Shown here in pieces: positions 29,036 to 31,539 of a DNA stretch of 34,565 bases. The position numbers and the translations under genes were made by a program. Under the pieces are notes generated by a model. That model worked only from the letters and a program-made list of their open reading frames with translations. It did not search any database and was not told where the DNA came from. Positions within the stretch are counted from its first letter, which is position 1. Each line of letters opens with the position of its first letter. This DNA comes from Oscillospiraceae bacterium (GTDB lineage: Bacteria > Bacillota > Clostridia > Oscillospirales > Oscillospiraceae): NCBI GenBank assembly GCA_015068395.1, contig SVKP01000034.1:1-34565 (forward strand), given 5' to 3'.

Positions 29036-29211
29036 CCGCTTGATTTTCAACCGACCATCTCCGCGACGGGGTCACGCAAAAACGCACGGGAAGCCGGTGC
29101 GGTATTGGGGAAAAGCGAGTAAATGAATCGAGCCGGGGACCGGGTCTACCGAGCGTAGGTTGCTTTCACCGCGGCGATATCGTATCCTTGCGGTGAAAGG
29201 AGCGATGAACC

Positions 29212-29835
29212 ATGAATCAATACATCACAGGGACCATGATAAAACGCCTGCGCGAGGGCAGGGGGCTGACGCAGCAGCGGCTTGCCGAGCTGGTGAACGT
29301 CAGCGACAAGACAATCTCCAAGTGGGAGACGGGCCGGGGATATCCTGATATCTCACTGGTCGAGCCGCTCTCCGCCGCGCTGGGCGTTTCGGTGATCGAG
29401 CTGTTTTCCGGCGAGGATGTGGTGAACACCAACCGCGCGGCAAACATGCTGCGGATGAAGCTCTATGTCTGCCCGCTGTGCGGGAACGTGATCCAGAGCA
29501 CGGGCGAGGCGGTGGTCAGCTGCTGCGGGATCGTGCTTCCGCCGCTGGAGGCGGAGCCCGCCGACGAGCAGCACCCCGTTCATGTGGAGCGCATCGAGAA
29601 CGAATACTATGTCACGGTCCGCCACGAGATGAGCAAGACGCATTACATCTCATTCCTCGCGGCGGCGAGGGACGACGGGTGGGAGCTCAAAAAGCTGTAC
29701 CCGGAGGGAGACGCGGAGGCGTGCTTTCCCATCGGCGGAACGCGGTATCTGTACTGCTGCTGCAACCGGCACGGCCTGTTCAGAATACCCGTGCCGCCCG
29801 CGCGGAACGGGACGGACGGCAAGGAAACGGCATAA
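29212..29835 (+). CDS. XRE HTH regulator fused to a desulfoferrodoxin/superoxide reductase-like domain
   Basis: HTH IKRLREGRGLTQQRLAELVNVSDKTISKWETGRGYPD; CPLCGNVIQSTGEAVVSCCG; EQHPVHVERIENEYYVTVRHEMSKTHYISF; CNRHGLFR. Confidence 0.9.
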   Translation: MNQYITGTMIKRLREGRGLTQQRLAELVNVSDKTISKWETGRGYPDISLVEPLSAALGVSVIELFSGEDVVNTNRAANMLRMKLYVCPLCGNVIQSTGEAVVSCCGIVLPPLEAEPADEQHPVHVERIENEYYVTVRHEMSKTHYISFLAAARDDGWELKKLYPEGDAEACFPIGGTRYLYCCCNRHGLFRIPVPPARNGTDGKETA

Positions 29836-29879: not shown

Positions 29880-30551
29880 ATGAGCGGAAAGCTGTTTGCA
29901 CAGGCGATCATAAAGGTTTTGAGCGGAGTTGTCATCGTGGGCGCGCTGCTCTTTCTCCCGGCAGGGACGTTCGCCTATCCGCAGGCGTGGCTGCTGCTCG
30001 GCATTTTGTTTCTGCCGATGTTCGCCGCGGGGTTCGTGATGATGGCGAAGTGCCCGGAGCTTCTGAAAAAGAGACTGAACGCAAAGGAGGAGCAGGCGGA
30101 GCAGAAAACGGTCGTGATGCTCAGCGGACTGATGTTCATCGGCGCGTTTGTCTTTGCGGGGCTGAGCTTCCGCTTCGGCTGGCTCATGCTGCCCGGATGG
30201 GCGTCCTGTGCGGCGGCTGCGGTATTCCTGCTGGGGTACGCGCTCTATGCCGAGGTGCTGCGCGAAAACGAATATCTCTCCCGGACCATTGAGATCCAGG
30301 AGGGGCAGAAGGTCGTCGACACGGGGCTGTACGGCGTGGTGCGCCACCCGATGTACATGACGACGCTGCTGCTGTTCCTCTCCATGCCGCTGGTGCTGGG
30401 CTCTGCGATCTCCTTTTTGATTATGCTCGCGTACATCCCCATCATCGCGAAGCGCATCCGAAACGAGGAGGAGGTTCTGGAAAAAGGGCTGGACGGGTAT
30501 ACGGCGTACAAGCAGCGCGTCCGCTACCGGGTGATCCCGTTTATCTGGTAG
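29880..30551 (+). CDS. Isoprenylcysteine carboxyl methyltransferase-like membrane protein
   Basis: Multi-TM; GLYGVVRHPMYMTTLLLFLSMPLVLGS, RIRNEEEVLEKGLDGYTAYKQRVRYRVIP. Confidence 0.9.
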   Translation: MSGKLFAQAIIKVLSGVVIVGALLFLPAGTFAYPQAWLLLGILFLPMFAAGFVMMAKCPELLKKRLNAKEEQAEQKTVVMLSGLMFIGAFVFAGLSFRFGWLMLPGWASCAAAAVFLLGYALYAEVLRENEYLSRTIEIQEGQKVVDTGLYGVVRHPMYMTTLLLFLSMPLVLGSAISFLIMLAYIPIIAKRIRNEEEVLEKGLDGYTAYKQRVRYRVIPFIW

Positions 30552-30594: not shown

Positions 30595-31539
30595 ATGGTA
30601 AACGAAAAGATCGTTGTCGGGGAGGGCACGGAGTATCCGCTCCACGGAATGCTGACGCTGCCGGACGACACGGCGGAGAAGGTTCCCGCCGTCGTCTTTG
30701 TCCACGGCTCGGGGCCGAGCAACATGAACGAGCAGATCTATCAGCTGACGCCGTTCAAGGACCTCGCGGAGGGGCTGGCGGCGCGCGGGATCGCGTCGGT
30801 CCGCTATGACAAAAGGACCTTTGCCTACGCGGCGAAAATGAAAAACACGCTTATCACCGTCAAGGAGGAGACGATTGACGACGCGCTCCTTGCCGCGGAG
30901 CTGCTTCGCCGCGACATGCGCATCGACCCGGACGCCGTCTACATCGTCGGGCACAGCATGGGCGCCATGCTCGCGCCGCGCATCGACGCGGAGGGCGGAC
31001 GCTTCCGCGGGCTCATCCTTATGGCGGGCACGCCCTTCCGGCTTGAGGATATCGTCGTGCGGCAGCTGCGGCAGTCGGGGCGCTCCGGGCACGGGCTCAT
31101 GCGTGCGATCGCCCGGCTGGAGGACAAGCTGTTCAGCAAGAAGTTCGATGGGCTCTACGAGCTTTCCGACGAGGAGGCGAAAAAGAAAAAGTTTGCCGGT
31201 GCGGCGACGCTCTATTACTTCAAGGAGATGGGACAAAAGACGGCGGCGGACTACCTGCTGGAAAATGACACGCCCGCTTTGATCCTCCAGGGCGGCATGG
31301 ACTTTCAGGTGCTGCCGTCGGAGGACTACGCCCGCTTTCGGGAGCTGCTGAAGGACCGGCCCAACGTGGAATACCGCCTGTATGACGACCTCAACCACAT
31401 ATTTGTCAAGGGCATCTACAACAACATTCTGAAGGCGTCAAAGGAGTACAAGGTCGAGCAGCACATCGGCGCGGAGGTGATTGACGACATCGCCGCTTTC
31501 ATCCGTGGCACCCTGACTGAATCGGTAAAACCCGAATAA
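30595..31539 (+). CDS. Alpha/beta hydrolase
   Basis: VPAVVFVHGSGPSNMNE, YIVGHSMGAMLAPRI (GxSxG), DDLNHIF. Confidence 0.93.
   Translation: MVNEKIVVGEGTEYPLHGMLTLPDDTAEKVPAVVFVHGSGPSNMNEQIYQLTPFKDLAEGLAARGIASVRYDKRTFAYAAKMKNTLITVKEETIDDALLAAELLRRDMRIDPDAVYIVGHSMGAMLAPRIDAEGGRFRGLILMAGTPFRLEDIVVRQLRQSGRSGHGLMRAIARLEDKLFSKKFDGLYELSDEEAKKKKFAGAATLYYFKEMGQKTAADYLLENDTPALILQGGMDFQVLPSEDYARFRELLKDRPNVEYRLYDDLNHIFVKGIYNNILKASKEYKVEQHIGAEVIDDIAAFIRGTLTESVKPE

Follow-up and report, generated by a model that had tools for sequence, protein, structure and literature searches.

What does a protein do that joins an HTH DNA-binding domain to a superoxide reductase (SOR) domain in one chain, and which genes does it control? 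We address this question for a gene of an Oscillospiraceae bacterium (GenBank assembly GCA_015068395.1, contig SVKP01000034.1). The stretch of DNA analysed, referred to here as the window, comprises 34,565 nucleotides. A sequence-only reading of the window had described the gene as an XRE-type regulator fused to a desulfoferrodoxin domain and had proposed an iron- and redox-sensing regulator built on an SOR fold, or else an SOR with DNA-binding regulation. The gene and its parts are as follows.

29212 to 29835, + strand: HTH-Dx-SOR gene (P0001), an open reading frame of 207 aa.

29239 to 29403, + strand: HTH_3 (XRE/Cro-C1 type) DNA-binding domain, aa 10 to 64 (Pfam PF01381, E = 1.7e-14).

29452 to 29784, + strand: desulfoferrodoxin-like domain, aa 81 to 191 (TIGR00320, PDB 2ji2, Foldseek).

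29470 to 29526, + strand: centre I, C87-x2-C90-x13-C104-C105, a desulforedoxin-type Fe(Cys)4 site, with ligands conserved in 100, 100, 100 and 94 of 100 homologues.

29566 to 29574, + strand: E119-Q120-H121, aligned with E47-K48-H49 of the D. baarsii SOR, with the His ligand kept (94 of 100) and the Lys replaced.

29623 to 29643, + strand: H138-E-M-S-K-T-H144, two equatorial His ligands of centre II (each 100 of 100).

29761 to 29772, + strand: C184-N-R-H187, the axial Cys and a His ligand of centre II (100 and 97 of 100).

The fusion is real, and the open reading frame, strand and coordinates had been read correctly. Pfam, TIGR00320, PDB and AlphaFold2/Foldseek matches agree on an XRE-type HTH joined to a desulfoferrodoxin domain. 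The HTH_3 domain scores 54 bits against a gathering score of 23 bits. Residues 81 to 191 match the TIGR00320 desulfoferrodoxin model with E = 9.6e-12 and 45.2 bits, below its equivalog cut-off of 146.9 bits. The C-terminal part matches solved superoxide reductases (PDB 2ji2, 2ji1, 1dfx and 1vzg) with E of about 1e-8, which improves to 2e-16 with a profile built from 59 relatives. The AlphaFold2 model of the 207-aa protein (mean pLDDT 87) consists of a helical HTH part, with helices at residues 3-16, 21-28, 32-39 and 47-57, and a beta-rich domain that, among PDB structures, matches SORs best (Foldseek E = 1.9e-9; TM 0.70 to 0.74 on the target). Cro/C1-type HTH proteins were matched separately by the same model.

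Every iron ligand of the solved superoxide reductases has an aligned counterpart in the window protein. In the PDB and profile alignments, CPLC, CC, (E)QH, HEMSKTH and CNRH fall on CEVC, CC, (E)KH, HPMEEKH and CNIH of the SORs, so that C87, C90, C104 and C105 correspond to the ligands of the Fe(Cys)4 site, and H121, H138, H144, C184 and H187 to those of the Fe(His)4Cys site. The alignment to desulfoferrodoxin, which had been suggested as a check, thus bears out the placing of the Cys and His residues, including EQH, HEMSKTH and CNRH at the iron-site positions. The spacing given for centre I needs correcting: CPLC-x15-CC is wrong and the actual arrangement is CPLC-x13-CC, 2 residues below the x15 of classical desulforedoxin.

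Family statistics were drawn from 100 homologues, namely the best 80 of 183 relatives found by a genome-contig scan together with about 20 from 99 related genomes. Carriers of the HTH-Dfx gene include many Clostridia, Treponema and Sphaerochaetaceae, and so span Clostridia and Spirochaetes; close homologues occur in the cultured hosts Treponema ruminis (L090) and Peptostreptococcus faecalis (L120). Chance is ruled out for the ligand pattern because the ligands are near-invariant in these 100 homologues; C105 is replaced by His in 6, H121 is lost in 6 and H187 is lost in 3. The centre I spacer is 13 residues in 99 of 100, with the remaining one unmatched by the pattern. Positions 119 and 120, which correspond to E-K of the SOR E-K-H motif, are freely variable, with Lys in 2 of 100; the Gln seen in place of Lys in the window protein is therefore real and part of a family-wide loss. 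The Cys3His form of centre I arises at the same position every time (L093, L094, L097, L107, L114 and L118). The last centre II His (CNxH) is Asp in L205, L223, L224, L082 and L099, some of which are matches of the blind promoter scans described below.

Stand-alone SORs from the same related genomes served as a control. The x15 spacing and the EKH motif were each present in 31 of 31, and the promoter element described below preceded 0 of the 30 that were testable. In a tree, the HTH-linked and stand-alone domains are wholly separate (100/100). The window genome also carries one stand-alone SOR (C122). Among 20 related genomes with the fusion, 10 have a stand-alone SOR besides it and 10, several of them incomplete MAGs, have no other detectable SOR.

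Conserved gene neighbourhood was considered as a clue to targets and rejected, as no family adjoins the HTH-Dfx gene at more than 9 of the 99 loci. Downstream in the window, 29880 to 30551 and 30595 to 31539 encode an isoprenylcysteine-methyltransferase-like (ICMT-like) membrane protein and an alpha/beta hydrolase, the first of which begins 44 nt past the HTH-Dfx stop. These two genes are possibly cotranscribed with the HTH-Dfx gene here and are not recurrent neighbours in relatives.

The upstream region holds a conserved promoter element, represented in the window by two features.

29145 to 29162, + strand: conserved candidate operator TCTACCGAGCGTAGGTTG, a palindrome with a -35-like TTG, shared upstream of homologues.

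29183 to 29188, + strand: -10 element TATCCT, 20 nt past the candidate operator, with a 17-nt spacer from TTGnnn.

The consensus TCTAC-N4-GCGTAGGTTG-N20-TAnnnT is present upstream of 88 of 93 homologues, and TCTACGNNGCGTAGGTTG lies 45 to 60 nt ahead of most homologue start codons. Its core is the palindrome CTACG-N3-CGTAG, which abuts the -35-like TTG and is followed by the 17-nt spacer; in the window the palindrome occupies 29146 to 29158, with one arm mismatched at C29150, and TTG adjoins at 29160 to 29162. The element was found in 86 of 93 distinct upstream regions at up to 3 mismatches and in 88 at up to 4, compared with 3 of 1,860 Markov controls at up to 3. Column information is 1.3 to 2 bits across most of TCTAC....CGTAGGTTG and next appears only at TAnnnT, exactly 20 nt on, the position of which is fixed in 83 of 88 homologous promoters. 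The element is conserved across two phyla.

Two further repeats were noted near the -10 element. A 17-nt inverted repeat at 29163 to 29199, 82% complementary and perfect in its outer 10 nt (CTTTCACCGC/GCGGTGAAAG), surrounds the predicted -10 of the window; it was rejected as the operator since it is absent as a conserved feature in relatives. Six Treponema loci (L090, L098, L101, L109, L110 and L111) have a second short palindrome, GYAGCTRC, just past the -10, the halves of which change in step (GTAGCTAC / GCAGCTGC); it is a possible second operator.

Blind scans with the pattern CTACN5GTAGGTWG-N20-TANNNT covered about 1,070 genomes (391 of the class, 296 of the T. ruminis phylum and 399 of the window's phylum, a few of which overlap the class set). 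They returned 25 distinct matches, 19 of them directly ahead of an HTH-Dfx gene. Another lies ahead of an FMN-reductase gene that is followed about 11 nt later by the HTH-Dfx gene (the G225 operon). The others lie ahead of a cut-off gene remnant starting MNQY (L222), an unrelated XRE gene of 139 aa with a hydrophobic C-terminal part (L227) and a CatA-like ORF in T. ruminis (L204), and in two cases inside ORFs. In the three genome sets the reversed pattern matched 8, 2 and 5 times. The total is thus modest relative to the control, and the location of the matches is decisive: at the sequence level, the element is tied almost exclusively to the HTH-Dfx gene. In L222 the candidate operator, promoter and MNQY start look intact and are followed by stop codons, apparently the remains of an HTH-Dfx gene that has been deleted. 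L227 suggests that related HTH proteins may share the operator type. Sites in L183, L201, L221, L189 and L180, which are inside ORFs or have the wrong half-site, were taken as chance. Looser genome-wide scans (up to 3 mismatches) showed no excess of sites over the backwards control, so no large regulon is visible and a wide regulon was rejected.

A recurrent link is to an NADPH-FMN-reductase-like flavoprotein (FMN_red/Flavodoxin_2). Its gene shares an operon with the HTH-Dfx gene in G225, lies about 2 kb downstream of it in G101, and in a Treponema genome (G108) is on another contig with its own copy of the element. No iron-uptake genes were found among the conserved neighbours or targets of HTH-Dfx genes. 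Candidate operator and HTH also vary together: where WETG of the HTH is replaced by WERG or WECG, the right half-site is altered in 5 of 5 cases versus 1 of 83 others (Fisher p = 1.5e-7, a value that ignores kinship, the five being one clade). In L027 both arms of the palindrome have changed in compensation (CAACG...CGTTG).

The WETG codons are also where a mobile element splits the HTH-Dfx gene in three genomes (L022 and L228 of G001, L024 of G031, and L030/L232 of G094). The element encodes a large serine recombinase (Resolvase, Recombinase, Zn ribbon and DUF4368) and has imperfect terminal inverted repeats, GGTTCACTTAGATAAAGATA ... ATATCTTTAACTAAGGGAAACC. The G094 copy, for which the reading covered both ends, spans about 10.4 kb (L030/L232 668-11075) and further contains an AadA-type aminoglycoside adenylyltransferase gene together with RepA_N and Mob_Pre. 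It seems that this element uses the regulator gene as its site of attachment.

We propose that the HTH-Dx-SOR protein is probably an iron- or redox-responsive transcription factor that regulates its own gene and hardly any other, and that it may retain superoxide chemistry. The N-terminal Cro/C1-type HTH would bind CTACG-N3-CGTAG just upstream of the -35 of its own promoter, and the C-terminal domain would sense iron or redox state through its Fe(Cys)4 and Fe(His)4Cys centres. The signal would most likely be superoxide, O2/peroxide or NO, with iron also possible, and oxidation, ligand binding or iron loss would alter the dimer and with it the grip on the operator. The predicted regulon is tiny: the protein's own gene, joined in a few lineages by the flavoprotein gene. 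We infer from sequence that both centres carry iron, that the HTH binds the palindrome and that the iron sites control this binding, as well as what the signal is and whether control is positive or negative. Lambda CI activates PRM by contact with sigma. Activation of this kind seems slightly favoured here over repression by occlusion of the -35, because the palindrome is held in a fixed register (centre at about -43) and the -35 keeps only TTG; repression would be nearly as likely. We offer only tentatively the more specific account in which this family of transcription factors made the SOR active site a sensor that relays superoxide, O2 or NO to essentially its own promoter only, by a class-II RNA polymerase contact from the operator at about -43.

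The E-K pair of SOR (Glu47 and Lys48) speeds catalysis. Because the family retains the ligands but has lost the catalytic Lys, a regulator is more plausible than an ordinary SOR; to that extent the sequence-only proposal of an iron and redox regulator on an SOR fold stands, its x15 spacing apart. It is unlikely that the protein is mainly a working superoxide reductase whose HTH only autoregulates its synthesis and whose metal sites have no sensor role. Such an enzyme would fit the retention of all Fe ligands, an operator found essentially only at its own gene, the 10 of 20 carrier relatives without another SOR match and a co-operonic flavoprotein that could donate electrons, but the E-K pair is not conserved (K in 2 of 100, against 31 of 31 in stand-alone SORs) and a regular SOR is also present in half of the carriers. 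Active-site variation alone need not abolish SOR chemistry, since the SOR of N. equitans, which has no Glu ligand, is reported still to reduce superoxide (PubMed 17968598, cited in PMC3116461). In the 10 of 20 carriers without another detectable SOR the fusion protein may be the working one, which counts against a pure regulator. Also counting against the regulator proposed here are the ligand losses in some members (C105, H121 and H187), the restriction of the HTH/operator covariation to one clade of five, and its predicted control of only its own gene, which is unusual for a sensor.

Two other explanations were weighed against the autoregulatory redox factor. The Fe (or Zn at centre I) could report metal supply, with superoxide irrelevant, and the retention of ligands but not of catalytic residues suits such a sensor, as does the change from Cys4 to Cys3His in six members, which is typical of Zn or structural sites. 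This is quite improbable, given that iron-uptake genes are absent among conserved neighbours and targets and that the His4Cys geometry of centre II is, to our knowledge, otherwise confined to SORs. Least probable of all is that the HTH is a structural leftover without DNA binding, as in HppE-type iron enzymes, and that another factor binds the element. Foldseek does also match HppE/MPnS, in which an HTH-like part accompanies an iron enzyme, but the element is tied to the HTH-Dfx gene across two phyla with few matches elsewhere, and in one clade a changed HTH goes with a changed operator.

The class HTH-Dx-SOR was defined in SORGOdb with 19 proteins (Lucchetti-Miganeh et al. 2011, PMC3116461), and the fusion itself is not new. 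The window gene belongs to this class by its architecture, a single chain in which a Dx-SOR module follows an N-terminal HTH, and by its SOR centre II ligands (4 His and 1 Cys, 94 to 100% conserved); PMC3116461 assigns the class no operator or target. Although the class has been listed since 2011, a full-text search of the literature, with most subscription papers outside its reach, found no functional or experimental study of HTH-Dx-SOR, no function or target for it, and no match to the candidate operator sequence. TrtA of Treponema denticola was rejected as a characterised homologue, since it is an XRE protein of 104 aa and lacks an SOR domain. The candidate operator, the Lys loss, the x13 rule and the flavoprotein link appear to be new here.

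The nearest characterised systems each share part of this design. The window protein has the fold, the four Cys of centre I and the His4Cys centre II of desulfoferrodoxin/2Fe-SOR (TIGR00320 dfx_rbo; D. baarsii 2JI1), but adds the HTH; it differs from classical Dx-SOR in having CX2CX13CC instead of CX2CX15CC, EQH without the Lys of E-K-H, and a score of 45 bits, far under the equivalog threshold of 146.9 bits. HppE and MPnS likewise unite an HTH-type domain and a mononuclear iron site within a single polypeptide, but have a cupin fold and act in biosynthetic catalysis, and we know of no operator for them. With the Cro/C1-type (XRE) regulators lambda CI, P22 C2 and SinR, the protein shares HTH_3, a short palindrome by a sigma-70-type promoter and, as predicted here, autoregulation, but it has a two-iron SOR fold as effector domain. 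The candidate operator, the Lys loss and the flavoprotein link make DNA binding and superoxide sensing by the SOR site directly testable. If the proposal is true, strict anaerobes would possess a superoxide, O2 or NO sensor on an SOR fold, distinct from SoxR, PerR and Rex.
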